From contig CAMZKL010000020.1 of the NCBI GenBank assembly GCA_947311255.1, forward strand, positions 1 through 44,547: a stretch of 44,547 nucleotides of DNA. Reading direction: 5' to 3'. Shown one piece after another: positions 2,076 to 18,847 of this stretch; positions within the stretch are counted from its first letter, which is position 1; the number at the start of each line of letters is the position of its first letter. Under the pieces are notes generated by a model. That model was not told where the DNA came from. It did not search any database and was given only the letters and a program-made list of their open reading frames with translations. Both the position numbers and the translations under genes were made by a program. Origin of the DNA: an uncultured Chlorobiota bacterium. Lineage in GTDB: Bacteria; Bacteroidota; Bacteroidia; Bacteroidales; JAADGE01.

Positions 2076-4229
2076 TTATTTCAAATAATCATCAAAATAA
2101 CGAGTAACTTTTTTCATTAAATGAATACGGGTTTTCCCTCTCATATTATGTTCACTTTCGGGGTATAAGAAATAATCAATATCAGTATTATCTTTTATAC
2201 AAGAACGAATAAAATCAAGACTATTTTGAGGAACAACAACAGGATCTTGGTAACCATGTATCATTAACAAACGTCCTTTTAGGTCTTTAGCCTTATTTAG
2301 TAAACTTGTTTTTTCAAAACCTTCAGGATTTTCTTTTGGAGTATCCATATAACGTTCTCCATACATAACTTCATAGTATTTCCAATCAATTACAGGACCT
2401 CCGGCTACCCCAACTTTAAAAGTTTCAGGGTAATTTGTTATTAAGGATGTTGTCATAAAACCACCATAACTCCAGCCATGTACACCAATTCTATCAGCAT
2501 CAACATAAGGCAAACTTTTAAGAAAATCAATACCTTTCATTTGGTCTTTCATTTCTTCTTGTCCACATTGGCGATGAATAATACTTTCAAATTCAAAACC
2601 TCTATTTGCAGAACCTCTGTTATCAAGTGTAAACATTACATAACCTTTTTGTGCCATATAATAATTCCAAAGTCTCGCATCGCCCAGCCACTGATTATGA
2701 ACAAGTTGTGCATGAGGCCCTCCATAAACATAAACTATTGTAGGATATTTTTTATTAGGGTCAAAATTTGGCGGTGTTATTAATCTGTAATATAAATCCG
2801 TTTTTCCATCGGCAGCTTTTATTGTTCCTATTGACATTTTTCCTAGTTCATACCCATTTTCGGTATAAGGATTTTTTGCTTCAAGAACTATTTTAACAGT
2901 TTTTCCTTTACTATCAACAATTAAGTTATTGTTTGGAGTTTTTTTGTTTGAATAAGAATCGAAAAAATATTTTTTTGAATTTGAAAGAACAATATTATGT
3001 ATTCCTGCAGCAGAAGTTAATTTCTGCATTTTTCCGGTTTTGAAGTTCACCTTATAAAGATGTTTTTCTATTGGACTTTCTTTGGTGGAATAGATATAAA
3101 AGTTTTTTAATTTGCTATCAAACCCTAAAAAATCTAATACAAGCCAATTTCCTTTTGTAAGTTGCCTAATTAATTTTCCTTCGGTATTATACAAATATAA
3201 ATGATTAAAACCATCACGTTCGCTATACCAAACGAACTTATTGTCAAGACCTTTGGGAAATATTAGTTGATGCTCTGGCTCAACCCACTTTTCATTTCTT
3301 TCTTCAAATAAAGTTTTTACAAACTTGCCATTTTTTGCTTCATATTTATTTAGCTTAAGATGATTTTGTTCTCGATTTAATACTCCAATATAAAAGAACT
3401 TGCTATTTGCATCCCAAGTAATGCTGGTTAAATATCTTTCATTAGTAAAATCTGTTACATCTGCAAAAACAGTTTTGCCTGTTTTTAAATTATAAATTCC
3501 AAGAGTTACCTCTTCACTTTTTTCACCAATCATTGGGTATTTGGTATTACTTACTTCTGCAATTCTTTTAGTAATATTAACAAGAGGATAATCGGCAACC
3601 ATTGTTTCATCTTTTCTGTAAAAGGCAAGCATTGTTCCATTAGGCGACCAAAATATTCCTTCTGTTATGCCAAATTCTTGTCTGTGAGTATATCCATTTC
3701 CGTTAACAATTCCTTTATCTTTGTCAGAAGTTATATCAACAATTTTGCCTTTTGCATCAGAAAAGTACAAGTTATTATCTATTGTGTAAGCCGTATAATT
3801 ATTTGATTTACAATAATGTACATTATCCGCTTTTTCAGGAAGTGTAATATTTAAGTCAAGTTTTTTAGTAGAGCTATTATAAATATAATTATTACTACCT
3901 GCTGTAAATTTTAACTGATTAGAATTTAGCCAAGAATAATTCCAGTAAGGAAAATATTTTATTTCTTTGTTTCCTGTTTCAACAATTGCAGAATTAATTT
4001 CTTCTAAAGTTAAAATTGTTTTGTCAGATTTTAAATCTTTAATTTGCTTATAATCTTTTACATAAGTAAAATTATTTTCGGTATAAGCTTTAACTCCGTT
4101 TATATGTTCTGGGTATAATTCTCGCCACTGTCCGCTTACGGCATTTTCAATTGTTAATTCTTTTTTTTGTGAAAAAGAAAATAGAATTGTTGTTAATAGA
4201 ATTGTTGATAATAGGAATAATTTTTTCAT
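2076..4229 (-). CDS. Secreted dipeptidyl-peptidase IV-type serine peptidase (S9)
   Basis: A family S9 prolyl-oligopeptidase-type enzyme that would release dipeptides, typically X-Pro, from peptide N-termini. A signal peptide (MKKLFLLSTILLTTILFSFS) directs it out of the cytoplasm. The N-terminal ~470 residues match a DPP-IV beta-propeller (for example FWSPNGTMLAFYRKDE and YSERDGFNHLYLY). The C-terminal alpha/beta hydrolase domain carries the expected triad: Ser587 in GWSYGG, Asp662 in GYQDPVVV and His694 in SEHNMRG. The oxyanion-region motif YVYGGPHAQ is present, as is the repeated NRGS segment. The 717-residue length is normal for the family. It has no T9SS sorting domain, so it is probably periplasmic. 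It appears monocistronic, with REP-like repeats immediately upstream. Confidence 0.93.
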   Translation of the reverse strand: MKKLFLLSTILLTTILFSFSQKKELTIENAVSGQWRELYPEHINGVKAYTENNFTYVKDYKQIKDLKSDKTILTLEEINSAIVETGNKEIKYFPYWNYSWLNSNQLKFTAGSNNYIYNSSTKKLDLNITLPEKADNVHYCKSNNYTAYTIDNNLYFSDAKGKIVDITSDKDKGIVNGNGYTHRQEFGITEGIFWSPNGTMLAFYRKDETMVADYPLVNITKRIAEVSNTKYPMIGEKSEEVTLGIYNLKTGKTVFADVTDFTNERYLTSITWDANSKFFYIGVLNREQNHLKLNKYEAKNGKFVKTLFEERNEKWVEPEHQLIFPKGLDNKFVWYSERDGFNHLYLYNTEGKLIRQLTKGNWLVLDFLGFDSKLKNFYIYSTKESPIEKHLYKVNFKTGKMQKLTSAAGIHNIVLSNSKKYFFDSYSNKKTPNNNLIVDSKGKTVKIVLEAKNPYTENGYELGKMSIGTIKAADGKTDLYYRLITPPNFDPNKKYPTIVYVYGGPHAQLVHNQWLGDARLWNYYMAQKGYVMFTLDNRGSANRGFEFESIIHRQCGQEEMKDQMKGIDFLKSLPYVDADRIGVHGWSYGGFMTTSLITNYPETFKVGVAGGPVIDWKYYEVMYGERYMDTPKENPEGFEKTSLLNKAKDLKGRLLMIHGYQDPVVVPQNSLDFIRSCIKDNTDIDYFLYPESEHNMRGKTRIHLMKKVTRYFDDYLK

Positions 4230-4245
4230 TTTGTTATTTTTGGAA

Positions 4246-4331
4246 AACCGTTAAAACGGTTGACTATTATTTTTATATTCAGCCCACGATTTAAATCGTG
4301 GGTTGATATTTGTAAACCATTTTAATGGTTT
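4246..4331. repeat. Cluster of three REP-like palindromes
   Basis: Three short palindromes stand in a row: AACCGTTAAAACGGTT (4246-4261), the perfect 20-mer CCCACGATTTAAATCGTGGG (4283-4302) and AAACCATTTTAATGGTTT (4314-4331). They lie in the intergenic space upstream of the peptidase gene and contain no reading frame. The pattern resembles the dispersed REP-type palindromes that many Bacteroidota genomes carry in gene gaps. No transposase of the RAYT type is in this window. Confidence 0.7.
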
Positions 4332-4352
4332 TTTAAATTTCGCAAGATATAA

Positions 4353-4388
4353 AAAAAGCTCAATATTTTTTAAAACATTGAGCTTTTT
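4353..4388 (-). terminator. Intrinsic terminator of the endonuclease I gene
   Basis: The stem AAGCTCAAT/ATTGAGCTT closes a loop of about 12 bases and is flanked by an A-run on the left, which gives the U-tract on the minus transcript. It lies downstream of the minus-strand endonuclease gene ending at 4583, with other repeats between. Confidence 0.65.
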
Positions 4389-4417
4389 ACAATTAAATTT
4401 ATGTTTATAGTTTGTCT

Positions 4418-4554
4418 GACCCTGCGGGTTTTAATAAACCTAATATCCGCAAGCCATAAACTAACTAACTGATAGTCACGGCGTGAATTATTTAATAAAA
4501 GTAATATGGTATTTTAGTTAAATTTCTGTTTATTAGTCTATTCACACCGTGACT
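4418..4554. repeat. Decayed half-palindrome plus 15-bp inverted repeat
   Basis: At 4418-4430 lies GACCCTGCGGGTT, identical to the left arm of the hairpin at 6431-6461, but its right arm here has decayed. At 4474-4488 (AGTCACGGCGTGAAT) and 4540-4554 (ATTCACACCGTGACT) lies an inverted repeat with 14 of 15 positions matching and a 51-base spacer. Together with 4246-4331 these fill the 353-base gap 4230-4582, which holds no gene. Confidence 0.65.
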
Positions 4555-4582
4555 TGCTAAGCTAATGATGAAATAAATTAAA

Positions 4583-6394
4583 CTATTTTTTTACAAATTT
4601 CGCAATAGTAGTATTGCCATTGTTATCTTTTATATTTAAAATATAAATACCACTTTGTAAATTATTTATGTTTAGTGGATATGTTTTTGTTTGAATATTT
4701 GAAATGTGAAAAACTTCTTTCCCAATAATATTTATTACAGAAATATTGATAAAATTGGTTTCACTATTAATATTTAAAATATTATTTGCAGGATTTGGAA
4801 AAATTTTAATTCCTGAATTTAAATAGTCAACACTTTCTACAACATTTCCTTGCAAAAATATATCATCAATTTTCCACCATGCAGCTTCTCCTGCAGTAGT
4901 TCCGGAGGAAGTGTAATGGAATGCAATATGTACGGATGTTCCATTAATGCTTGACAAATCAATATCACCGGACTGTTTCCAAGTTTGTTGTTGGTTACTT
5001 GTAGGATAATTGTATGATAAAGTAGCCCATGTTGCAGAATTTGGATTTCCATTTCCAGTGTAATTTGTTGAATATTTTAATTTAACTTCCGGGTCTGTTA
5101 CTCCATCATCTGAATATCTTAACCAAGTTTTAAATGTTAAATTTTCATTTTCATAATCATTCAAATTTAGTTCTGGCGATATAAACCAATCGTTAGAAGC
5201 AACATCGCCATTATATCCGTTAATGCTATAGGTTTCTGAATCGCAAGTCCAATTTTTATTGCTTGTAACAGAAACAGTTTCCCAATTTGCAGGAGGACAA
5301 GAAGAAAAATCAACATCTATAATATCTTGTATAACACTGTATGGAGAAACTACAATTGTAAAAGATTGTGTTTCAGTCTCTCCATTTTCTGTTAAAGTTA
5401 AAACAACATTATGGTTTCCTATATCTGAACTACTTGGAGTTCCTGTAAGAAGTGCAGTATTGTTAGATTCGTCTTTTGAGAATGTTAACCAACCTGGTTT
5501 TGTACAAGTTAAAGTTTCAGCACCTGCATCATCATTATAAGTTATGTTATAAGTGTATGTTTGATTTTCCATTGCAGATGTAATAGGTGTACTTGTAAAA
5601 TTTAAACCATTACAATTTCCTCCAAAAACACACTCAACCCACTCTGGGTGGTCAATGTATGGGTTTCGATTATGTTGGTAGGGATATATTGCATTGTTTC
5701 TGTCTATTTCTTTTTGTGAAACAGGGTCATTTGCATTCCATTCAAGAAGCATATTTAGTGTCCAGCTCGAAAAACCGTCACCATTAAAAGAAGCACCATT
5801 TAAGCTGCTAACGTTGTAACGCGTTGCCGCATAGAAATATCCGCGTGCAATATCTCCTTTAAATCGGTCTATGGGTTCAAAAATAGTTCCCGAATACCCG
5901 GCATACGAGCAACTTCCTATTTTGCTGCCGTTAGTTGATGTCCAATTTGCACCGGAGGTTTCTCCGTAAGGTAAACTGCTTCTCATTCCATTAACTTTGC
6001 CGTCGGTAGGAATTACAATAAAAGCATCTGCTTTTTGTGTTGAATTTAAGCCCCACGATTGAGGTATTGTATGTTCTCTATTGTAACAATCACCTTCGAC
6101 TGCGTAGGACCCGCATTTGTCGCTGAAATGAGTGTACCAATAATTTGCAGTTCCGTCGTTGTGCATTGAATACATATCCCAAACTTTTCCATTTGTGTAG
6201 TTATCAGAAGTCTGATATACATTATACAACCCATCATATCCTACGGAGTGGTAATTTGCAGAAATTATTGACCTTAACTCCATTTTTAAGTTGTTTCCTT
6301 CTAAACCATTAGCACTATCATAATAACCACTAGGAATTTGAGCAAAAGTAAAAGATGAGTAGATAATAAAAATAATTGCAATTAATTTTTTCAT
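4583..6394 (-). CDS. Secreted endonuclease I with adhesion-type domains and T9SS sorting signal
   Basis: A 603-residue extracellular nuclease. After the signal peptide (MKKLIAIIFIIYSSFTFAQ) comes an EndA/endonuclease I domain (about residues 20-250) with the family motif NREHTIPQSW containing His108, followed by KADAFIVIPTDGKVNGMRS and DPVSQKEIDRNNAIYPYQ-type segments. These enzymes cut DNA and often RNA without sequence preference. Residues ~265-350 look like a putative Ig fold (LTFSKDESNNTALLTGTPSS), residues ~355-515 like a choice-of-anchor J jelly roll (NWTCDSETYSINGYNGD to WWKIDDIFLQG), and the end is a T9SS type A sorting domain (KIFPNPANNILNI to TTIAKFVKK). The protein should therefore be exported through T9SS and kept on or released from the cell surface. 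It is the first of three minus-strand nucleic-acid-related genes that diverge from the TonB operon at 8678. The gene probably has its own terminator at 4353-4388. Confidence 0.93.
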   Translation of the reverse strand: MKKLIAIIFIIYSSFTFAQIPSGYYDSANGLEGNNLKMELRSIISANYHSVGYDGLYNVYQTSDNYTNGKVWDMYSMHNDGTANYWYTHFSDKCGSYAVEGDCYNREHTIPQSWGLNSTQKADAFIVIPTDGKVNGMRSSLPYGETSGANWTSTNGSKIGSCSYAGYSGTIFEPIDRFKGDIARGYFYAATRYNVSSLNGASFNGDGFSSWTLNMLLEWNANDPVSQKEIDRNNAIYPYQHNRNPYIDHPEWVECVFGGNCNGLNFTSTPITSAMENQTYTYNITYNDDAGAETLTCTKPGWLTFSKDESNNTALLTGTPSSSDIGNHNVVLTLTENGETETQSFTIVVSPYSVIQDIIDVDFSSCPPANWETVSVTSNKNWTCDSETYSINGYNGDVASNDWFISPELNLNDYENENLTFKTWLRYSDDGVTDPEVKLKYSTNYTGNGNPNSATWATLSYNYPTSNQQQTWKQSGDIDLSSINGTSVHIAFHYTSSGTTAGEAAWWKIDDIFLQGNVVESVDYLNSGIKIFPNPANNILNINSETNFINISVINIIGKEVFHISNIQTKTYPLNINNLQSGIYILNIKDNNGNTTIAKFVKK

Positions 6395-6430
6395 AATTTT
6401 AAATTTAATTTATAAAGAATGTTTTTTGTA

Positions 6431-6461
6431 GACCCTGCGGGTTTTAAAAACCAGCAGGGTC
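6431..6461. repeat. REP-like hairpin
   Basis: GACCCTGCGGGTTTT and AACCAGCAGGGTC form a hairpin with one mismatch. The left arm recurs at 4418-4430. It sits between the endonuclease gene and the terminator of the next gene, in non-coding sequence. Confidence 0.65.
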
Positions 6462-6486
6462 TTTTATTATTTAGCTTTTAAAGTCA

Positions 6487-6522
6487 AAAAAAGACGTACT
6501 ATAAATATAATACGTCTTTTTT
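6487..6522 (-). terminator. Intrinsic terminator of the OB-fold protein gene
   Basis: The stem AAAAAAGACGTA/TACGTCTTTTTT with a loop of about 12 bases lies 27 bases past the stop of the minus-strand gene at 6549. The A-run on the left provides the U-tract of the minus transcript. Confidence 0.75.
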
Positions 6523-6548
6523 CAATAAAATGTTTCTAAAAACGTAAA

Positions 6549-7442
6549 TTAATTTTTTACAAATTTAGTAACAGCAGAAGTTCCATCAACATTATTAATG
6601 TTAATCATATAAACTCCATTTTTAAAATTTTCAACATTTAAAGAATAAAAGTCAGACATAATGTTTTCAATATTTAAAACTCTTTGCCCTATAACATTAG
6701 AAACTGTAATATTGCTAATGTTTACTTTACTTTGAATGTTTAATTCAACAGAAGTTGGATTTGGGAAAAGTTTTGCAGAAGTTGTAATATTATTTACTGA
6801 TGATGATGATACAACAGCTACATCATTAGCATCTCTAGGACATATTTTATATTGATTAAAATCATAAATTAAACATCCTGTTATATCATATTTTGTTCCT
6901 ACAGTAGCATCTGGAGTTAAATGAAACATCCAATCATCAACAAATGCATCTCCGCTTCCGTCATTAACAGTCCAAATTCCGTGAGTATCAGGTACTGCAG
7001 TACAATTTGCATTTTGAACCTTTACAAGAACTCCTTCATAATCTTCTGAACTTCCTGCAATATTTGTTGTAATTAAAGCAGGATTTGGAAGATCATTTCC
7101 GGAAGAGTTAATTGTAATAGCTGAAACATTAGTTAATTCGGTCATGTTAAAAAATTCGTCTACCTCTCCTGCTACTGTAACATTGTCACCTAGTACAAGC
7201 GATTGATTTAAATCAGAATAAACGTAAATACCGGTTCTTGTACCATTGCCATCTTGAATAAAAAATCCAAAGATACCTGTATCCCCAGACCTTACAGCTG
7301 TTACAACACCTGATACGGTAACAGTAGTTCCTTCTAACGGAGAAACATCTCCTGTTCCTTGAATGTCAGATATTGTTGTTTGTGCATTTGAATTAAAAGC
7401 AATAAAAATTATTGCTGCAATTAATAGTAAACCTTTTTTCAT
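6549..7442 (-). CDS. Secreted OB-fold nucleic-acid-binding-type protein with T9SS sorting signal
   Basis: A 297-residue protein with a signal peptide (MKKGLLLIAAIIFIAFNSNA). Residues ~21-115 read as the OB-fold found at the N-terminus of extracellular ExeM/NucH-type nucleases and in YhcR (TTISDIQGTGDVSPLEGTT, TVSGVVTAV, GFFIQDGNGTRTGIYVY, LGDNVTVAGEVDEF). A second related segment follows to about residue 210 (EGVLVKVQNANC, DAFVDDWMF). The end is a T9SS type A sorting domain (KLFPNPTSVELNIQSK to TKFVKN). It has no catalytic nuclease domain, so I infer a nucleic-acid-binding accessory protein at the cell surface. It lies between endonuclease I and the EEP nuclease, and a -7 promoter box lies at 7490-7497. 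The OB-fold is recognised from sequence pattern only; DNA binding is inference. Confidence 0.8.
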   Translation of the reverse strand: MKKGLLLIAAIIFIAFNSNAQTTISDIQGTGDVSPLEGTTVTVSGVVTAVRSGDTGIFGFFIQDGNGTRTGIYVYSDLNQSLVLGDNVTVAGEVDEFFNMTELTNVSAITINSSGNDLPNPALITTNIAGSSEDYEGVLVKVQNANCTAVPDTHGIWTVNDGSGDAFVDDWMFHLTPDATVGTKYDITGCLIYDFNQYKICPRDANDVAVVSSSSVNNITTSAKLFPNPTSVELNIQSKVNISNITVSNVIGQRVLNIENIMSDFYSLNVENFKNGVYMININNVDGTSAVTKFVKN

Positions 7443-7489
7443 AATTTATAAAATTTAATAGTTAAAAAATAATTTATTCAATGTGTTTG

Positions 7490-7497
7490 CAAAATTA
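7490..7497 (-). promoter_or_regulatory. Candidate Bacteroidota -7 box for the OB-fold gene
   Basis: On the minus strand the sequence reads TAATTTTG, matching TAnnTTTG, 48 bases before the start codon. No TTTG is seen at the expected -33 position, so this is a single-box match. Confidence 0.4.
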
Positions 7498-7530
7498 CAA
7501 AATATTTAATAAAGTAATGTTAATAATTTG

Positions 7531-8568
7531 TTATTTTTCTTTAATTAAAAACATATATGTTGGAAAATGGTCGCTATATCCATTTTGAAATCTATCAAAA
7601 GAAAAAGTTCTTTTTGGGTATCCTTCAAATCTTCCGGTATTATCAAGCAAAAACTTTTTCCTGAAAATATTTGCTTTCCAAAACATATATGTACTTTTAT
7701 CCTTCGATATTAAGCCTGGAGACACAAATAACATATCAAAGAAACTCCAAGCATCTCGGTACGCAGTTGTTCCTACACCTTTCTTATATGTTTTATAAAA
7801 TATATTATAAAGTTCGCCGTCTTTCAATTTATTTTTATTTTTATTTGTTCTTAAATGTTTAACAACACTTAAATTGTCCGGATTATCATTAAGGTCTCCC
7901 ATAACAATAATTTTTGCATTTTTATTAATATTTAAAATAGAATCTACTAAATGACGCGATAAATCGCCAGCAGCATTTCTTTTAGGTCTGCTTTGCATTT
8001 CTCCACCACCCCTTGATGGCCAGTGATTTACAATAATATTAATTGTATCCTTATCATAAATTCCTGTAACTACAAGTTGGGCTCTTGTTTTGTCTTCTTT
8101 ATCAAAATCAAAATTTAGAACATGAGAACTTGTATGTAAAATTTTAAAATAATCTTTTCTGTATATTAAACCTACATCAACACCACGTTCGTCAGGAGAT
8201 TCATAATGAACAATACCATAATTTGATGCTTTAAGTTTTGGCATTTTCACTAAATCTTCTAAAACCGATCGGTTTTCTATTTCAGAAACTCCTAACATAT
8301 GAGGACCTCCCTTTATATATTCATCCCCAATTTGAGAAATAACTTCCGACATTTGAGAGAGTTTTTTATAATATTTCTCAGTATTCCAAACTTTTTTACC
8401 ATTAGGTAAGAATTCTTCATCGTGAGTATTTGGAGAATCTATAGTATCAAACAGATTTTCAAGATTATAAAACCCAATACATGCAACTTTATATTGTTTT
8501 TTTTGTGCGTTTGCATTCATAAAAAAGAATACAAAAATTAAAAAAAATAAACTCTTTATTTTAAACAT
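7531..8568 (-). CDS. Secreted endonuclease/exonuclease/phosphatase-fold nuclease
   Basis: A 345-residue EEP-superfamily phosphodiesterase behind a signal peptide (MFKIKSLFFLIFVFFFMNANA). The metal-binding and catalytic motifs appear in order: NLENLFDTID, LGVSEIENR, INIIVNHWPSRGGGE, KIIVMGDLNDNPD and YSDHFPTYMFL at the end. Such enzymes cleave nucleic acid phosphodiester bonds, though some act on phospholipids or inositol phosphates. It lacks a T9SS sorting domain, unlike its two neighbours, so it is probably periplasmic. That would fit a second step acting on fragments brought in by the TonB receptor, whose gene starts 109 bases away on the other strand. The nuclease fold is firm; the substrate is inferred from context. 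Confidence 0.9.
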   Translation of the reverse strand: MFKIKSLFFLIFVFFFMNANAQKKQYKVACIGFYNLENLFDTIDSPNTHDEEFLPNGKKVWNTEKYYKKLSQMSEVISQIGDEYIKGGPHMLGVSEIENRSVLEDLVKMPKLKASNYGIVHYESPDERGVDVGLIYRKDYFKILHTSSHVLNFDFDKEDKTRAQLVVTGIYDKDTINIIVNHWPSRGGGEMQSRPKRNAAGDLSRHLVDSILNINKNAKIIVMGDLNDNPDNLSVVKHLRTNKNKNKLKDGELYNIFYKTYKKGVGTTAYRDAWSFFDMLFVSPGLISKDKSTYMFWKANIFRKKFLLDNTGRFEGYPKRTFSFDRFQNGYSDHFPTYMFLIKEK

Positions 8569-8602
8569 TATATATATTTTAATTAAATTACTTAATAATT
8601 AT

Positions 8603-8610
8603 TATCTTTG
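8603..8610 (+). promoter_or_regulatory. Candidate -7 box for the TonB receptor operon
   Basis: TATCTTTG matches the Bacteroidota -7 consensus TAnnTTTG and lies 67 bases before the ATG at 8678. The -33 region reads TTTT rather than TTTG. No Shine-Dalgarno sequence precedes the start codon, only A-rich DNA. Confidence 0.5.
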
Positions 8611-8677
8611 TTGCCCTTAATTATTGAAAATAAAATTCAAATTTAAAAGAAAAAAATTATAAAAAAAAATTGTAATT

Positions 8678-11485
8678 ATGAGAAGACTTATTTTAATGTT
8701 CTTATTTTTTGTTTTTGCATCTAGCATAGTTCATGCTCAAAACAAGATAACAGGGATTGTTAAAGACAGAAATACTCAAAAAAATCTTTCGGGTGTTGAA
8801 GTTAGGCTTTTGAAAACAAATATTAGCACCTTAACTGATGCTAATGGGTATTATGAATTAAATAATGTCCCGTCAGGAGCTGTTCAAATTTATTTTTCCT
8901 TAGTTGGTTATCATTCTTTCATTCAGGTAGTTGAAAATACTGAAAGTACTAATAAAAATATCGGATATTTTTATATGACATCCTCAGATATAACTATTGA
9001 CAATGAGCCTACAAGTGAAAACTCAAATTCCGAAGATGAAACTATTGTAGATATTGATGACAGTGAATTTATTGAAGGTTATGATGATTTAGATGTTAAT
9101 GTTTCCGGCGTATTACATGGTTCAAAAGATGTTTTTATGTCAACAGCAGGTTATACATTAGGACCTTTGCGTTTTAGTATTAGAGGTTACGAAAATAAAT
9201 ATTCTGATTTATATATGAACGGAATTCAAACAAATGATATGGAATCCGGACGTGCTGTTTGGGCATATTGGGGAGGATTAAATGATGCAGTCAGGAACAA
9301 AGAGGCGTACAAAGGAATTAGCAACTCGGATATTGGTTTTGGAGGAGTTGGAGGTATCACCGGGATTGATACACGAGCTTCTAAAATAAGAACAGGTACT
9401 AAATTAACATATTCTTTTACAAACAGAAGCTATAACCATCGAGCAATGTTTATACATTCAACAGGTATGATGAAAAATGGTCTTGCAGTTGCAGTATCAG
9501 GTTCAAGAAGATATGCAAAAGAAGGTTATGTAGAAGGAACTTTTTATGATGCTTGGGCTTATTTCCTTTCTGTTGAAAAAAAAATAAATGATAAACACAG
9601 TATTGGTTTTGTTGGTTTTGGAGCACCTTCAAAAAGAGGCGGAAGAAGTGCAACAACACAAGAAGTTTATGATTTAACAAGCACAAGATACAATCCTAAT
9701 TGGGGATGGCAAAATGGTAAAAAACGAAATGCAAAAGTTGGAGATTCTCATACTCCTTTTGGTATATTAACCCATTATTGGAATATAAATAAATCTAGCA
9801 AATTAGAAACTTCTTTTGCCTATTCAAAAGGAAAATACAATAAAACTTCCTTAAATTGGTATAATGCAAATGATCCAAGACCAGATTATTATAGATATTT
9901 GCCAAGTTATTATGCAACAAAATATGGTTATCAGGCAGGAGATTCTATTTTAAGAAGGAATGAATTTCTTAATGGAGAACGCCAAATAGATTGGAACTTA
10001 ATGTATCAAACAAATTATAATAGTATTGATACCATTGAAAATGCAGATAATATTTCCGGCAATACACTAATTGGAAAACGTTCACAGTATATTATTGAAG
10101 ACAGAAGAAATGAAAATAATCAATTTTGGTTTAGCACTAATTTTAATAAACAAGTTAATGAAAACTTAAAAGTTGTTTTTGGTGCACAACACAGAAGATA
10201 CAAAAGCAGACATTACAAAACACTAGTTGATTTGCTTGGAGGAGATTTTATTGTTGATGTTGATAAATACGCCCAAAGAGATTTAGCCGATTTATATGGA
10301 GAAGAAGTTGCAGAAAGTGATATAAGACATCCAAATAACATAATAGATGAAATAGGAGAAGTTTTTGGAAATGATTACTACTCAAATGTTAATAAAACAC
10401 AAGCATGGATAAAAGCACAAATGAACATTGGAAGAATTGATGTTTTTGGAGCAATTAACGGTTCTAACACTAACTTTTGGAGAACAGGAAATATGCAAAA
10501 TGGTAAATTCCCAAATAATTCTCTCGGAAATTCTGAAAAATTATCTTTTATAAATTATGGTGCAAAAGCAGGTTTTTCGTATAAATTATCAGGCAAACAA
10601 CACATAAGAGGAAAAGCTACATATTTTACCAAAGCACCCGATTTTAGAAACTCATTTGTTTCTCCAAGAACAAGAAATCAAGTAATATCCGGTTTAGAAA
10701 GTGAAACAATTTATTCAGGAGAGATTGGTTATATAATCCAATCAAATAAATTTAAGGCAACTTTTGATGCCTTCTACACAGAAATTAATAATCAATCAAG
10801 TGTAAGAAGTTTTTATTTAGATATATCACACAGTTTTTTAAATTTTGTAATGTCTAATGTTGATAAAACATACCAAGGCATTGAGTTGGGAGCTGAATAT
10901 ACAATAGTTCCTGGACTCTCTGCATACGGTGTTGGTTCATTAGGATATTACAGATGGGCATCAAACCCAAATTTCAATGTATATATTGACAATAGTGCAT
11001 CTTTAGAACTTGAGAACGAAAAAGCTTTTATTAAAGGAAATTTAGTAGGAGGAACTCCTCAAACGGCTTTTTCTGCCGGAATTAAGTATTTTTCATATAA
11101 ATACATAATGTTTGGTGTAAATGTTAATTATTTGGATGACAGATATTTGCCTTTTAGTGCATTAACAAGAGCAACTTCTTCATTAGAAGGCTTTTCGGAA
11201 CAAGACAGGTTAGACCCAAGATTTAAAGAATTTATTAAACAAGACAAACTTCCTGCATCATTAACATTAGATGCATTTATTGGAAAATCATTCAGATTTG
11301 ATTATAAATATTATTTGAACATTAGTTTAAATGTTTCCAATATTTTAAACAACACACAAATAAGAACAGGGGGATACGAACAAGCAAGATTTGTCTATGA
11401 TTTAGAATCATTAGAAAGATTTCCTCCAAAATATTATTATTACAGCGGTTTACAATATTACCTAAATGTTAGCTTTAGATTTTAA
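8678..11485 (+). CDS. TonB-dependent outer-membrane receptor
   Basis: A 935-residue outer-membrane transporter with a signal peptide (MRRLILMFLFFVFASSIVHAQ). Residues ~22-95 are a carboxypeptidase-regulatory-like domain (ITGIVKDRNTQKNLSGVEV, LTDANGYYELNNVPSG). A strongly acidic linker follows (about residues 104-142). The plug spans about 140-235 (RFSIRGYENKYSDLYMNG and SDIGFGGVGGITGIDTRAS). The rest is beta-barrel with aromatic-rich strands and the C-terminal signature YLNVSFRF. It imports a substrate using TonB energy. There is no SusD next to it; the partners are two OB-fold lipoproteins 22 bases downstream, and three secreted nucleic-acid-related genes diverge from it. I therefore infer DNA fragments or nucleotides as substrate, which the sequence alone cannot prove. 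Confidence 0.93.
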   Translation: MRRLILMFLFFVFASSIVHAQNKITGIVKDRNTQKNLSGVEVRLLKTNISTLTDANGYYELNNVPSGAVQIYFSLVGYHSFIQVVENTESTNKNIGYFYMTSSDITIDNEPTSENSNSEDETIVDIDDSEFIEGYDDLDVNVSGVLHGSKDVFMSTAGYTLGPLRFSIRGYENKYSDLYMNGIQTNDMESGRAVWAYWGGLNDAVRNKEAYKGISNSDIGFGGVGGITGIDTRASKIRTGTKLTYSFTNRSYNHRAMFIHSTGMMKNGLAVAVSGSRRYAKEGYVEGTFYDAWAYFLSVEKKINDKHSIGFVGFGAPSKRGGRSATTQEVYDLTSTRYNPNWGWQNGKKRNAKVGDSHTPFGILTHYWNINKSSKLETSFAYSKGKYNKTSLNWYNANDPRPDYYRYLPSYYATKYGYQAGDSILRRNEFLNGERQIDWNLMYQTNYNSIDTIENADNISGNTLIGKRSQYIIEDRRNENNQFWFSTNFNKQVNENLKVVFGAQHRRYKSRHYKTLVDLLGGDFIVDVDKYAQRDLADLYGEEVAESDIRHPNNIIDEIGEVFGNDYYSNVNKTQAWIKAQMNIGRIDVFGAINGSNTNFWRTGNMQNGKFPNNSLGNSEKLSFINYGAKAGFSYKLSGKQHIRGKATYFTKAPDFRNSFVSPRTRNQVISGLESETIYSGEIGYIIQSNKFKATFDAFYTEINNQSSVRSFYLDISHSFLNFVMSNVDKTYQGIELGAEYTIVPGLSAYGVGSLGYYRWASNPNFNVYIDNSASLELENEKAFIKGNLVGGTPQTAFSAGIKYFSYKYIMFGVNVNYLDDRYLPFSALTRATSSLEGFSEQDRLDPRFKEFIKQDKLPASLTLDAFIGKSFRFDYKYYLNISLNVSNILNNTQIRTGGYEQARFVYDLESLERFPPKYYYYSGLQYYLNVSFRF

Positions 11486-11507
11486 AAAAAAATAAAAAAA
11501 ATATAAA

Positions 11508-12770
11508 ATGAAAAATATTATTAAAATTATAGCTTTTATTTCAATACTTACATTTTTTTTAACTTCATGCGTTAAAGAAAATTTTGAAGACTTGCCTTTA
11601 CCCACGCATAAAGTGGATTTTGAAGCAAACACTACCATAAAAGATTTAAAAGAGATGTTTGATTTTACTGATGTAATAACAGATGATATTATTATTAAGG
11701 GAACAGTAATTTCAGATGATAAATATGGTAATTTTTATAAAAAAATTGTTATTCAAGACAGCACAGGAGGAATTGAAATTCAAATTAATGATTATGATTT
11801 ATATAGACTATTTCCAGTAGGGCAGTTAGTTTATATAAAATGTAAAAGTCTTATAATAGGAGAATACAAAGGTGTAATGCAATTAACTTATGATTCAAAT
11901 GGAAGCTCAGAAAGATTACCTGCAAATACAGTTAAAAAATATATTTTTAAATCTGATGGTGGAGTTCCAATAGTTCCAAAAATTGTAAAAATTCCCGAAT
12001 TAAATAGTGAGCATATTAATACTTTAATAAAACTTGAAGATGTTGAATTTGATATTTCGGAACTTGCATTAACATATGCTACTCAAAATCAAGATGCCAG
12101 CAGAACTCTCACCGATTTTGCTGAAAACACACTAATTGTTAGAACTTCATCTCATGCAGATTTTGCACTTGACACATTGCCAAGTGGAAATGGCGATGTA
12201 ACAGCTGTTTTTACTGTTTATAATTCAGACAAACAAATAAATATTAGAAATACTAACGAAGTTAATTTAACAAATAACAGAATAGAAAGGGTGTACTTAT
12301 TAAATGAAGATTTTCCCGGAAACCTAGGAAATTTTTCAAGCTATAGTGTAACAGGCTCTCAAAACTGGTATTATAATTCTCAATACGACTGTGCTCTTAT
12401 GAGTGGCTATCAGGGTGGTGCAAATGAAAACGAAGATTGGTTAATAAGCCCTCAACTTGATTTAAGCACTTCTTCAGATGCTTTATTAACTTTTTCTCAC
12501 GCAGGAAAATTATACGGAAGTTCATGGGATAATGTAAGCCTTCAAATTTCATCTGATTATGATGGAACAAGTAATCCTTCAACACAAGGAAACTGGACAG
12601 AAGTAAAAGACTTTGCTTATCCAACAAGTTTTTCATTTATAAGTTCAGGAGCAATTGATATGACAGGTTTTGTTGGAAACTCATCAGTTTACATTGCTTT
12701 TAAATATCTTTCAGATAATTCAACTGCCTTAAAATGGGAAATTCAAACAGTTAAAATAATTGCTCAATAA
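11508..12770 (+). CDS. DUF5689-type OB-fold lipoprotein, first of a tandem pair
   Basis: A 420-residue lipoprotein: the lipobox FFLTSC places the lipidated Cys at residue 21, and the next residues (VKENFED) are acidic as in surface-exported Bacteroidota lipoproteins. Residues ~35-265 resemble DUF5689, with an OB-fold core (DIIIKGTVISDDKYGNFYKK, IVIQDSTGGIEIQI, GQLVYIKCKSL). Residues ~285-420 resemble a choice-of-anchor J domain (NEDWLISPQLDLST, IDMTGFVGNSSVYIAFKY). It follows the TonB receptor by 22 bases and precedes a paralogue by 13, so the three genes form one operon. I infer a surface lipoprotein that captures substrate for the receptor, in the place SusD takes in glycan systems. The family has no established function that I know of. 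Confidence 0.82.
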   Translation: MKNIIKIIAFISILTFFLTSCVKENFEDLPLPTHKVDFEANTTIKDLKEMFDFTDVITDDIIIKGTVISDDKYGNFYKKIVIQDSTGGIEIQINDYDLYRLFPVGQLVYIKCKSLIIGEYKGVMQLTYDSNGSSERLPANTVKKYIFKSDGGVPIVPKIVKIPELNSEHINTLIKLEDVEFDISELALTYATQNQDASRTLTDFAENTLIVRTSSHADFALDTLPSGNGDVTAVFTVYNSDKQINIRNTNEVNLTNNRIERVYLLNEDFPGNLGNFSSYSVTGSQNWYYNSQYDCALMSGYQGGANENEDWLISPQLDLSTSSDALLTFSHAGKLYGSSWDNVSLQISSDYDGTSNPSTQGNWTEVKDFAYPTSFSFISSGAIDMTGFVGNSSVYIAFKYLSDNSTALKWEIQTVKIIAQ

Positions 12771-12783
12771 AAAAAAATCAATA

Positions 12784-14130
12784 ATGAAAAATATAATAAA
12801 AATAACAATTTTATTAACTATTGTCTCAATAACTTTCTTTTCAAGTTGTATAGACTATAAATTTGAAGAACCTGACATCTATGATTGCAACTTAGATTTT
12901 CAGCCGAATACTTCAATTGCGGAATTATTAGCCTTACACCCGGGTTCGGGTTACCAAGATAGCGTATTGCTAATAGAGGATGATATAATTATAAAAGGAA
13001 CTGTAATTGCAAATGACAAATCTGGAAACTATTATAAATCATTTGTGATACAAGACAGTACAGAAGCAGGTGTTCAAACAGGACTTTTAATAAGTATTAA
13101 TGAATATGAATCTCATAATAAATATCATGAAGGAGATATGATATATATTAAATGTAAGGGCTTGTATTTAGGATATTATGGAGAAGTTATTCAATTAGGA
13201 GTATTATATAATGGTGCAATTGGAAGAATAGGAGAACCATCTATAAAATATCATATTTTTAATGCTTGTAACGGAAAATCTATAAAACCTAAATCAGTTA
13301 CTTTAAATAGCTTAAACTCAGCTCCCATTAACACACTTATAAAGTTGGAAGATGTTCAATTTAAAATTAGTGAACTTGGAGAAACCTATGCAGATGCTGG
13401 TGAAAATGTAACTTCAAATCAATTAATAACAGACTGTGGAGGCACTGCCGAAATAAGTGTAAGAACTAGTGGATATGCAAGATTTGCATCAGAAATTTTA
13501 CCATCCGGAAAAGGTAGTTTAATAGCCATAAACGGAAAACATAATGGACACACACAACTAATTATAAGAAACGTAAACGAAGTAAATTTAGAAGGCGAAA
13601 GATGTGGAGCAGTATATCAAAAAGATTTTGATGAAGTTACCTTTAGCGATCCGGGAGGTAGCACTATAGAAAATTTAACAAACGGCAATTGGACTACATA
13701 CAAAGTTATTGGAGAAACAAATTGGAAAAAAACAAACCAAGGACACTCTTCATATTATGCCTCTGTTACAAATTACAATTTTGATACAAGCTCAAATAGT
13801 GATGCTGAAGTATGGTTAATATCTCCATCTTTTAATTTATCACTTCTTAATAATCCTGTTTTAAATTTTAAAACTGCTAAAAATTATAGCGGCCCAAACT
13901 TAGAAATTAAAATTTCAACTGATTATTCGGGGAGTGGAGAACCAGCAAATGCTACATGGACAAACTTGTCTGCAACACTGTCGGGAGGCACTTTTGTTTG
14001 GATGGAATCAGGAGATATCGACCTTTCATCTTTTAAAGAAACATCTGTTTATATTTCATATGTATATAAAGGTACTGATAGTGAAGGAGCAACTTGGGAG
14101 GTTGATGATATTAGTATTTTTGATAATTAA
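12784..14130 (+). CDS. DUF5689-type OB-fold lipoprotein, second of a tandem pair
   Basis: A 448-residue paralogue of the preceding gene, sharing the MKNIIKI start, the lipobox (FFSSC, Cys22) and the core DDIIIKGTVIANDKSGNYYK with VIQDSTEAG. Residues ~40-275 resemble DUF5689; the C-terminus (about 285-448) resembles a choice-of-anchor J domain (EVWLISPSFNLSLLNNP, TWEVDDISIF). The start is taken at 12784 because it begins the signal peptide; an upstream in-frame ATG at 12760 would overlap the previous gene and add a charged extension. The gene ends before a strong bidirectional terminator. Role by context: substrate capture for the TonB receptor, perhaps with different specificity from its twin. 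Confidence 0.82.
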   Translation: MKNIIKITILLTIVSITFFSSCIDYKFEEPDIYDCNLDFQPNTSIAELLALHPGSGYQDSVLLIEDDIIIKGTVIANDKSGNYYKSFVIQDSTEAGVQTGLLISINEYESHNKYHEGDMIYIKCKGLYLGYYGEVIQLGVLYNGAIGRIGEPSIKYHIFNACNGKSIKPKSVTLNSLNSAPINTLIKLEDVQFKISELGETYADAGENVTSNQLITDCGGTAEISVRTSGYARFASEILPSGKGSLIAINGKHNGHTQLIIRNVNEVNLEGERCGAVYQKDFDEVTFSDPGGSTIENLTNGNWTTYKVIGETNWKKTNQGHSSYYASVTNYNFDTSSNSDAEVWLISPSFNLSLLNNPVLNFKTAKNYSGPNLEIKISTDYSGSGEPANATWTNLSATLSGGTFVWMESGDIDLSSFKETSVYISYVYKGTDSEGATWEVDDISIFDN

Positions 14131-14150
14131 AATTGAAATATTTTAAATAA

Positions 14151-14184
14151 AAAAAACGTTCAGAATTTCTGAACGTTTTTTTTT
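14151..14184. terminator. Bidirectional intrinsic terminator
   Basis: The stem ACGTTCAG/CTGAACGT has a short AATTT loop, with an A-run on the left and a T-run on the right. It separates the TonB/lipoprotein operon from the convergent HAD gene and can serve both. Confidence 0.85.
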
Positions 14185-14201
14185 ATAAACTAAACGTATC
14201 T

Positions 14202-14624
14202 TTATAATTTTTTAAATATAGATTTTATTTTATTAGAAAAATCGGTTTTATTTATTTCTTTTTCAATTTTTTGAAACTGTTTTTCCGGATTACCAATAAG
14301 CTCCCAAATTTTACTCCATCCAATAAATCCTCCGACATTTCTATCATCAATATAAATATCTGCATAAATTTTACGACTTATTTTCTTTTCATTAAACTTT
14401 TCGTCAGGGTAATTTTTATTAACTGCATAAAATTCAATACCATTTTCTTTACAGAAACTAACAGCCTCATCTAATTCTTTTCCTGCTCTATATGTCCAAA
14501 GAATAAGTTTATGTCCATCTTTTTGAAGTTGTTTTAGTGTCTCAAATGCAAAAAGATTAGTTTTTCCAATTTCAGGAAACTTGTGTTCAACTATTGTTCC
14601 GTCAAAATCTACAGCAATTATCAT
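14202..14624 (-). CDS. Small HAD-superfamily hydrolase (BT_0820-like)
   Basis: A 140-residue protein with HAD motif I at the very start (IIAVDFDGTIVEH: nucleophile Asp5 and acid Asp7), motif II in LILWTYR (the T after W) and a motif IV-like acidic pair in DIYIDDRNVGGF. It has only the core fold with no large cap, matching the BT_0820-type subgroup seen in Bacteroides. HAD enzymes of this size are usually phosphatases; the substrate is unknown. It is a single gene between two terminators. Confidence 0.8.
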   Translation of the reverse strand: MIIAVDFDGTIVEHKFPEIGKTNLFAFETLKQLQKDGHKLILWTYRAGKELDEAVSFCKENGIEFYAVNKNYPDEKFNEKKISRKIYADIYIDDRNVGGFIGWSKIWELIGNPEKQFQKIEKEINKTDFSNKIKSIFKKL

Positions 14625-14653
14625 AAAAATGTTTTATTTATTGATTAAAAAAG

Positions 14654-14681
14654 AAAAAAGCACTCAAGCGAGTGCTTTTTT
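14654..14681 (-). terminator. Intrinsic terminator of the repeat-protein gene
   Basis: The stem AAAAAAGCACTC/GAGTGCTTTTTT with a four-base loop lies downstream of the minus-strand gene ending at 14850 and upstream of the HAD gene. Confidence 0.75.
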
Positions 14682-14849
14682 CAACCTTCTTTATTAACCT
14701 AAACCTTAAAACTATGAAAACTTTAATTTTAATTAGGACAAATATAATTCAAAATATTGTTACAGACTAATTTAAAGTCTTAATAAAAGTTAAAAAATAA
14801 AAATTTTAACTTTTTAGTAAAGTTAAGTTGTCAATTATTAATGATTAAT

Positions 14850-17800
14850 TTACTTTATTATAATTTTAATTACTCTTTTTTTATTATTTTTTAAAATTTT
14901 CATGAAATATATACCTGGTTTTTCATTTAAAAGATTAATTTTTTTAACTTTTTTTCTAATTTTTGTTTCATTATAAATTAATTTTCCAATAATATCAAAA
15001 ATTTCCATATCATAATTTTCTTCTTCAATATTTTCAATAATAAATTCACCTGAATTTGGATTTGGATAAATTAAAAACTTATCATCTAATTCATTAATTC
15101 CTGTTCCATCGTAATAAACATCCACATAATCTTCGGTTGTGCATGAAGAAGAAGATATTGTCCACATAAATGTATTATTATAAGCTATATTATGAACCTG
15201 CGAGTTGTATAAAGTAGGAGATACAATATTTCCTGATCCCATAATCAAAGACCAAACTCCATTTGCACCGGCAGGTGGCATATTCCCATCTAATGTAACT
15301 GTTCTAGAACTCAAATATTGGTCCTCCCCTGCATCTGCAATAATTCTAGTTATACTAACATCATCATAAGAAGTTGCACCATTTTGAGTTACTGTCCATC
15401 TATAAATATTCATCCCAACCCCCACATTTCTTACCCATGTATTATTTGAATGAATATCAACAAAATTACCTGCCCCTTCTAAAACAGACCAAACTTGGTT
15501 TGAAGCACCGTAATCTGCAGCACTTAGCTGAACAGAATCTGAACATATCGTTCTGTCAACTCCAGCATTTGGAGCAAAATTTACAACTGTTATATTTACA
15601 ATATCATCTGATGGACAACCATCTTTAATAACAGACCATAAAAATTGATTTACTCCGGAAGGCATTTCTGTTACTTCCGTATTCGGATTGTAAATATCGG
15701 TGATTATTCCACCCCCGCCAACCGGCGTCCATTGGGCAGTTGCACCGGAAGGCAAAACAGCAGTCGTAAATGTGCTTGTAACAAAATTATCTAAAACTTG
15801 ATCTTCACCTGCAACTGCATCAAAACTTCTGTTGTGAATTATAACTTCATCTTCATTACTTGTGCATCCCGAATTAAAAATTTTCCATTTTAAAGTATTA
15901 TAACCTCTTTGAATGTTCGTTATATTTGTATTGTACAAACTTATATCTTCAAAGTCTGCATAACCGGAAACTATTTCCCAAACACCGGTTTCCCCAGCGG
16001 GAGGTTGCCCACCGGAAAGTTGAGTATAGTCCACACAAATTTCTTGATCTGAACCTGCATAAACTTCAATTGAATTATTAAACACCGAAACATCATCAAA
16101 AGAAATACAAGTATTGTTTGTTACAGTCCATCTATAAATGTTTTCTCCTGGATTAATATTATTTACTTGCGAATTTGGGCTATTTTCATCTGAAAAAGCT
16201 CCTGCACCAAACTGAACTGTCCAATTTCCTGTTCCTAAAATAGGAGTTTCAGCATCTAAATCTGCATAATTTGTACAAACTGTTAAGTCTGCTCCCGCGT
16301 TTGCTTGAACTAAATTATTTGTAATATTCACATCATCTGTTGCCGTACACGAGTTCTTTGTTACATACCATCTATAAATATTTACTGAATTTTCTAAAAT
16401 TCCTGAAACTGACGTATTATATTGCGAAGAATTATTAAATATCCCCGTTCCTGATACCACTGTCCAATAACCTGAATCCGGATTCGGATTATTTGCATTT
16501 AAATTTGTATTATCATCACATATTTGTTGATTAGGACCTGCTAATGTAAAAAACATATTATTTGTAATGATTACATTATCATCGTCAGTACAACCATTTC
16601 CGCTCACAGTCCATGTAAAAGTATTTAAACCTATACTTAGCCCTGTAACATCAGAAGTATTGTTTGAAGGTTCATTTATTGTTCCTGAACCTCCTGACAC
16701 TGACCAAATTCCTGAAAGACTTCCTGAAACAGGTAAAGCAGCTAAACTTGTATAATTTAGACAAATATTTTGGTCATTTCCTGCATTTGCCAATACTGTA
16801 TTTCTATTTATTACTGCTTCGTCTGAATTTTCGCAACCATCTTTTGCAAGTGTCCACTTGATAATATTTGATCCTAAGGATAAATTCCTTACAGTTGTTG
16901 TTTGATCATTTGAATTATCAAAAAAAGCGGTCGTAGGTTGTACTGTCCAAAAACCGTTTCCCCCTGGAGGTGGCATATTACCATTAATTGGAGAATAACT
17001 TTCGCAAATTTCAGTGGGTCCGCTAACACTTGCATTTGCAATATATTGATTATTAAGAATTTCAATGTCATCAAAATCAGAACACGTTCCTTTTGTAAGA
17101 GTCCATCTATATTTGTTTATACCAGAAGTAAGGCTTGTAACTGTTGAATTATATTGATTAATATTTGTTACCGTACTTGCACCTGCAATTATTTGCCATT
17201 CTCCTATTTCTCCCGTTTGAGCTTCGTTTCCATTTAATATGCTTGAAGTTCCACAAACAATTTGATCTATTCCTGCATTTGCATTAACAAAATTGTTAGT
17301 AACAATTACATCATCATAATTTGAACATTCTGCATAATTTATTGTCCATCTGTATGTGTTTGCATTAAATGATACATTACTTACACTTGTAGTGTTTAGC
17401 AATGAATTAGCAAAAATTCCTGTTCCTGAAATAACTGACCACGAACCTGTTCCAACAGAAGGATTTGATGCTGCCAATGTTGTATTTCCATTACAAATTT
17501 CAAAATCTGAACCTGCATTTGCTGGTGAAGCAGTATTTCGACTAATTGAAACATAATCAGTTTCAACACAAGCACCTTTTGTTATCTTCCATTCAAAAGT
17601 ATTTACTCCGTTTACTAAACCTGACACTTCCGTATTGTATTGATTTTCATTTACAAAAGTTCCACTTCCTCCTGTTACTCTCCATTCTCCCGTTCCTGTT
17701 CCCGGATTATTTCCGTTAAGAATGTATGAATTTGTACAAGTTATGTCATCAGCTCCTGCATTAGCAACAAAATAATCGTAGAAAATTTCAACTTCATCTT

Positions 17801-18815: not shown

Positions 18816-18839
18816 AATTAAAAGATTTTCTTGGAATAA

Positions 18840-18847
18840 CAAAGATA
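18840..18847 (-). promoter_or_regulatory. Candidate -7 box for the repeat-protein gene
   Basis: The minus strand reads TATCTTTG (consensus TAnnTTTG) 25 bases before the start codon at 18815. No clear TTTG at -33 was found. Confidence 0.45.

Follow-up and report, generated by a model that had tools for sequence, protein, structure and literature searches.

The window analyzed here is the complete 44,547-nucleotide stretch of contig CAMZKL010000020.1 (GenBank assembly GCA_947311255.1, forward strand), which derives from an uncultured Chlorobiota bacterium placed by GTDB in the Bacteroidales (JAADGE01). Between positions 4583 and 14130 it carries a candidate locus for DNA degradation and uptake, in which three minus-strand genes diverge from three plus-strand genes. 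All six were confirmed on the window sequence at the positions and strands given in a first-pass annotation, and Pfam and NCBIfam scans bore out that layout. The core comprises a secreted nuclease of the endonuclease/exonuclease/phosphatase (EEP) family, a TonB-dependent receptor, and lipoproteins with DUF5689, a domain of unknown function. An endonuclease I and an OB-type (oligonucleotide/oligosaccharide-binding) protein are accessory and lineage specific.

The core EEP gene (7531 to 8568, minus strand) matched PF19580 (Exo_endo_phos_3; 4e-120) and is divergent from the receptor gene. Inspection by eye identified a signal peptide and no lipobox, and no sorting tail was matched, which agrees with its earlier description as a nuclease with a signal peptide only. 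Residues N35, H182, D225, N227, S332, D333, and H334 were identical in all 82 EEPs examined from such loci, of which one carried a lipobox-like stretch. The receptor (8678 to 11485, plus strand) combines a carboxypeptidase-regulatory-like N-terminal domain (CarbopepD_reg_2) with a TonB barrel; a plug domain was not matched in the Pfam scan. It is followed on the same strand by two lipoproteins, LP1 (11508 to 12770) and LP2 (12760 to 14130), each with DUF5689 and choice-of-anchor J matches. LP2 as listed starts at a TTG at 12760 and overlaps LP1 by 11 bases, although an in-frame ATG eight codons downstream is the likelier start. The lipobox of LP1 (LTSC) is followed by acidic residues, a pattern like the surface-export signal of Bacteroidota lipoproteins. 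At least two acidic residues within eight positions after the cysteine were present in 151 of 170 lipoproteins that matched a loose lipobox pattern, a count made with no control. Among the nine proteins scanned, spanning positions 2076 to 18842, no SusD or glycan enzyme was found, as the first-pass annotation had stated. No pilus or secretin gene was found among the window proteins scanned, and no genome-wide pilus search was made.

The core is conserved across the class Bacteroidia. Using a profile built from 23 receptors and scoring no more than three candidates in each genome, the receptor family was identified in 60 of 247 Bacteroidia genomes and 34 of 142 genera, with one match each at an E value of ≤1e-100. 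These homologues span 17 GTDB-type family codes. Neighborhoods were read in 59 of the 60 receptor-positive genomes (G021 was left out). A DUF5689 gene lay directly downstream of the receptor in 57 of these 59 class loci; the two misses were L166, where the contig ends, and L191. The EEP gene was the immediate upstream neighbor of the receptor in 42 loci, 40 of them with divergent orientation, and lay within five genes in 50. A six-frame recheck by eye of 28 chosen loci had raised the count for DUF5689 from 52 to 57 and that for an EEP within five genes from 48 to 50, as the first open reading frame maps preferred antisense frames and hence missed lipoproteins in some genomes. Given one to three EEP genes among approximately 3,000, adjacency of EEP and receptor by chance is estimated at far under one locus in 59. 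An EEP (E value of ≤1e-30) was found in all 60 receptor-positive genomes and in 90 of the 187 others, from lists compared by eye; this and all other co-occurrence counts are raw and ignore kinship.

Clustering of neighboring genes gave the same trio. From 122 loci examined, 111 were receptor bearing, and these were grouped by family code, with some relatives standing as single loci. Across the 33 groups, the receptor cluster was found in 33, a DUF5689-type cluster in 32, and the EEP cluster in 26, while the next most common neighbor reached 9. The DUF5689-type cluster also takes in proteins with type IX secretion system (T9SS) tails and endonuclease I through shared domains; by score, DUF5689 is present in 140 of the 192 members. 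A further set consisted of loci from the best 80 of 168 relatives, Riemerella columbina among them and mostly Weeksellaceae by title. All 80 had a DUF5689 gene after the receptor, and 78 had a divergent EEP upstream; in the other two the receptor was near the contig start. Among 60 genomes of relatives of the window genome (itself included), 35 had a receptor match of at least 565 bits. Weaker second receptors, at most 401 bits, appeared once 15 candidates per genome were scored and were treated as other TonB receptors. More distant TonB receptors, which score 210 to 401 bits with the profile, occur commonly within the genus and order of the window organism (G505:C7, G507:C15, G516:C39, and others), and two neighboring ones on contig G000:C3 of this genome scored 171 and 128 bits against the window receptor. 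The first-pass annotation had proposed conserved co-occurrence as a check on the locus, and the outcome on Bacteroidia genomes was not its absence: EEP, receptor, and DUF5689 are associated beyond chance.

The three core genes also appear to be exchanged together. In Chryseobacterium and relatives (L072 to L151), the EEP-receptor-DUF5689 cassette occupies one chromosomal place in two forms that differ strongly, whereas the genes on either side are conserved. Of the 79 loci compared (the truncated L111 was left out of the 80), 45 carried type A, with a double-DUF5689 lipoprotein, and 34 carried type B, with a single one. Mean identities for the flanking genes within A, within B, and between types were 89.5, 94.6, and 91.1% for SOD (66 loci), 80.4, 88.2, and 82.8% for Rho (65 loci), and 83.6, 90.7, and 86.0% for LDC (62 loci). 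The corresponding values were 78.7, 85.3, and 64.8% for the EEP (78 loci), 77.5, 73.3, and 48.3% for the receptor, and 62.4, 50.0, and 27.2% for the lipoprotein. Within-type and between-type ranges do not overlap for the receptor; for the EEP and lipoprotein they do, with the highest between-type values (82.5 and 44.0%, respectively) above the lowest within-type values (57.1 and 26.6%). On quick trees, read with no shuffles and with supports not used, type changed at least five times for the joined flanks (59 loci), twice for the EEP, and once for the receptor. Together with the identities, this indicates that the EEP has mostly moved with the receptor and lipoprotein but has departed from them at least once.

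Genes for natural transformation in Riemerella anatipestifer have been found by transposon screen (PMC8459023). Two of these adjoin one another: RA0C_RS04915, which encodes a carboxypeptidase-regulatory domain protein of the outer membrane, and RA0C_RS04920, with DUF5689 and DUF5017. Markerless deletion of either brought transformation below detection, and the authors had already proposed RS04920 as a DNA binder and RS04915 as a DNA transporter; four essential factors had no relatives among known transformation proteins (PMC8459023). Mutation of tonBA or tonBB also lowers transformation in this species, and the tonBA mutant had no iron-uptake defect (PMC8383284), which fits a TonB-powered DNA receptor. 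The authors ascribed the tonBB effect to iron (PMC8383284). R. columbina, which is naturally competent (PMC7965970), was used as a stand-in for R. anatipestifer. Its locus has the same layout as the window, with the EEP on the minus strand and the receptor and DUF5689 genes on the plus strand. Searched against the window genome, the R. columbina receptor matched the window receptor with 396 bits (next protein, 60 bits), and in the reverse search the window receptor matched the R. columbina locus receptor with 398 bits (next protein, 119 bits). The two are reciprocal best hits and thus orthologous to each other, and through R. columbina the window receptor is very probably the orthologue of RA0C_RS04915. 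By synteny with the same species, RA0C_RS04910, the gene upstream of the R. anatipestifer receptor, is probably the EEP gene. A collagen-like protein with Gly-x-y repeats is also encoded near the R. columbina locus (L118:1787-3775, minus strand).

Sequence searches of the PDB returned nothing for the receptor (E values up to 0.01) or the lipoprotein (up to 0.1), and structure models were compared using Foldseek. The receptor model (predicted local distance difference test [pLDDT] score, 67) matched solved TonB receptors, Fiu and others, at E values down to 7e-22 over approximately 740 columns. The best matches were siderophore receptors, a result that any TonB receptor would be expected to give. 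The LP2 model (mean pLDDT, 76.5) matched the DNA-binding OB-fold structures HIN, Teb1, RPA70, RADX, and POT1 at E values of 1e-5 to 6e-4. On the model, the OB matches would correspond to the DUF5689 part of LP2 and the jelly rolls to its C-terminal half. DNA binding is a likely function of DUF5689.

The two accessory genes of the window lie on the minus strand beyond the EEP. The endonuclease I (EndA, PF04231; 4583 to 6394) contains Endonuclease_1 (7e-73), Ig-like, choice-of-anchor J, and Por_Secre_tail matches. The OB-type protein (6549 to 7442) also has a Por_Secre_tail and resembles the N-terminal part of ExeM/NucH nucleases, a model whose N-terminal part was matched at 4e-16, far below the model cutoff; its PF01336 match is subthreshold (17.7 bits; cutoff, 27). 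PorV is encoded in this genome, and the sorting tails of both proteins fit export by the T9SS. The first-pass annotation had counted these two genes and the core as members of one locus, which stands for the EEP, receptor, and DUF5689 genes, whereas EndA and the OB-type protein are lineage-specific additions. Within six genes of the receptor, an endonuclease I was present at 3 of the 59 class loci (that of the window and two from a single other family) and at 8 of 33 relatives' loci; it recurs at L195 to L197, L199 to L201, L171, L185, L215, and L220. In the genus of the window, the receptor was found in 12 of 14 genomes searched, 6 of which have endonuclease I at the locus; in the other 6 the contig ends less than 4 kb upstream. 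NUC1 nucleases were within six genes in 5 of 59 class loci and 1 of 33 relatives' loci, and proteins matching the OB-type region of the window protein in 19 of 59 class loci. Seven proteins from four groups clustered as a second EEP type; a T9SS tail was matched in four of the seven, and the two scanned with Pfam had PF03372 and the tail. The accessory place is filled by different nuclease families in different lineages, namely, endonuclease I, NUC1, or the second EEP.

Other arrangements near these loci were a fusion, encoded two genes away from the receptor, of a NUC1 nuclease with a fimbrillin-like domain (Mfa_like_1; L152:13502-15088, minus strand) and, in a genome of the window's genus, a tandem pair of endonuclease I genes, one encoding 1130 amino acids with an fn3 domain (L195:5974-10523, plus strand). 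Directly downstream of the window lipoproteins is a convergent gene for a BT0820-family HAD phosphatase (14202 to 14624, minus strand). Beyond it lies a gene for a 1330-amino-acid T9SS-tailed protein (14850 to 18842, minus strand) with many PKD-like repeats and one K319L-like PKD match; a similar repeat protein is encoded near the receptor in locus L179.

Elsewhere in the genome, ComEC and DprA are present. Proximity of ComEC to the receptor was dropped as a marker, as few genomes had both within approximately 35 kb, about the level of chance as judged by eye among the matches listed. Two HHH_3 proteins were identified, neither of which was assigned to the RA0C_RS02645 type. A protein encoded at G000:C2:11000-16500 (L237) has a signal peptide, a helix-hairpin-helix match, and, by eye, the look of an outer-membrane barrel, and is possibly a DNA-handling outer-membrane protein.

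DNA degradation and uptake is well supported as the function of this locus. With a probability of approximately 0.62, we read it as a TonB-powered machine for DNA import across the outer membrane, the core of which most likely serves natural transformation. The surface DUF5689 lipoproteins would bind extracellular DNA through their OB folds and pass it to the receptor, which TonB would open to admit the DNA into the periplasm. There the EEP, exported by the general route, may trim or nick the incoming DNA so that one strand continues through ComEC, or may instead degrade it. In this lineage, the T9SS-exported EndA and OB-type protein would first cut large extracellular DNA, and nutrient use of the cut DNA is a plausible second benefit. 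A need for the receptor, lipoprotein, and TonB is known from R. anatipestifer; in this organism we infer every step, including which form the DNA takes and where and how the EEP acts.

Several observations weigh against this reading. The experimental support comes from R. anatipestifer rather than from this organism, and NamZ/DUF1343, which is essential in R. anatipestifer, had no match in this 94.5% complete genome. ComEC and DprA were rejected as discriminating markers, since they are near universal in the sample (242 and 241 of 247 genomes, respectively) and their presence says little. The receptor and DUF5689 pair is insufficient for competence, because Flavobacterium johnsoniae was not competent under the conditions tried (PMC7965970) though its genus carries the pair (PMC8459023, Table 4). 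RA0C_RS04910 is in neither of the R. anatipestifer mutant tables (PMC8459023), and no EEP was found within five genes of the receptor in 9 of the 59 class loci. DUF5689 was present in 134 of 296 genomes of a phylum sample, and all 10 loci chosen for lower-scoring DUF5689 hits (L054 to L063) were without a receptor, so the domain alone is no marker of the system. In the models, the best Foldseek hit of LP2 was a sugar enzyme, with many carbohydrate-module, gingipain-adhesin, and MAM matches mixed in; whole-chain TM-scores were low, and the matched residues are absent from the Foldseek output. The receptor model is of low quality in its plug region, where residues 105 to 230 are mostly at a pLDDT of <50. 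Finally, it is paradoxical for a transformation receptor to sit next to secreted nucleases unless these are confined or regulated.

Alternatively, the locus may serve acquisition of carbon, nitrogen, or phosphorus, with endonuclease I cutting extracellular DNA, DUF5689 binding oligonucleotides, the receptor importing them, and the EEP finishing in the periplasm. We regard this as unlikely, though it is the best of the alternatives. In several lineages the core is found together with exported nucleases, and a 5′-nucleotidase-like gene, recognized by eye, lies less than 9 kb from the receptor in 3 of 33 groups (L169, L180, L199, and L220), including L199 of the window's genus. Inspection by eye of the 30 most widespread neighbor clusters turned up no further recurrent gene for breaking down nucleotides or transporting nucleosides. 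Two F. johnsoniae endonuclease I genes are induced on phosphate depletion, but these (EndA1/EndA2) are listed as orphan genes, and the induced TonB-dependent transporter Fjoh_0545 has a Pfam plug and other domains, unlike the window receptor (PMC8115612). These data favor endonuclease I, rather than the receptor trio, as the part with a role in feeding. Feeding or phosphorus scavenging is conceivable, chiefly for that enzyme. Transformation with marker DNA depends on both members of the orthologous pair (PMC8459023), and for the core, transformation has more support than feeding. The first-pass annotation had cast the locus as a nucleic acid counterpart of a polysaccharide utilization locus. 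A conserved unit pointing to extracellular nucleic acid upholds one part of that description, while the transformation phenotype speaks against its feeding frame.

It is very improbable that the locus clears extracellular DNA, biofilm, or neutrophil-trap-like material, with the receptor and lipoproteins as a surface anchor or docking platform and no import. T9SS nucleases and choice-of-anchor J/MAM-like domains would suit surface work, but what is conserved is the receptor, which has a TonB-receptor fold, and an EEP without a sorting tail rather than the exported nuclease; loss of the receptor orthologue, moreover, blocks R. anatipestifer transformation (PMC8459023). Least probable is a receptor for a metal chelate, peptide, or glycan beside nuclease genes placed there by accident, a reading that the siderophore receptor matches and the carbohydrate modules and enzymes among the LP2 matches would allow, but that is opposed by EEP adjacency in 42 of 59 loci, by cassette codivergence, and by the transformation phenotype of the orthologues (PMC8459023).

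Compared with known systems, the locus, like a SusCD polysaccharide utilization locus, groups a TonB receptor, surface lipoprotein, and degrading enzymes, but it has DUF5689 lipoproteins in place of SusD and nucleases in place of glycosidases. The ExeM/NucH model NF033681 is matched in one part by the OB-type protein and in another by the EEP (59 and 28 bits, far below the cutoff of 300), whereas in the window the OB, EEP, and membrane receptor are each encoded by a gene of their own. In type IV pilus/secretin competence, uptake brings DNA through the outer membrane to ComEC; here the TonB receptor would be the outer-membrane gate. TonB2 of Acinetobacter baumannii, from a different phylum, has also been implicated in natural transformation (PMC8811193). 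The RA0C_RS04915/RS04920 pair shares with the window a carboxypeptidase-regulatory receptor followed by a DUF5689 lipoprotein, but the window has two separate DUF5689 lipoproteins together with the T9SS endonuclease I and OB-type protein. The main text of the Riemerella paper uses "endonuclease" only for restriction enzymes and places receptor homologues only in the Flavobacteriaceae, in contrast to the 17 family codes found here (PMC8459023). The receptor and DUF5689 pair and the idea of DNA import were already known from Riemerella (PMC8459023). Literature searches on DUF5689, TonB receptors for DNA, Bacteroidota competence, and DNA feeding, which covered a minority of subscription papers and no preprints, gave as relevant titles the Riemerella papers, PMC8811193, and PMC8115612 and no others, and DUF5689 itself occurred in one paper, PMC8459023. 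Within that literature, no description was found of the EEP as a partner, of accessory nucleases, of an OB-like fold, of occurrence outside the Flavobacteriaceae, or of cassette exchange.

The question at stake is how DNA passes the outer membrane in competent Bacteroidota. Two essential Riemerella factors are now tied to a third conserved gene, a secreted nuclease, in a unit found in 17 family codes of the Bacteroidia. As a tentative generalization, to which we would give somewhat short of even odds, a TonB-energized receptor, a DUF5689 OB-fold lipoprotein, and a dedicated periplasmic EEP may replace the pilus and secretin in Bacteroidia, the trio being an exchangeable cassette whose alleles would set DNA or phage specificity and to which lineages would add their own exported nuclease. 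The cluster may be the DNA-uptake route of many bacteria in this group.

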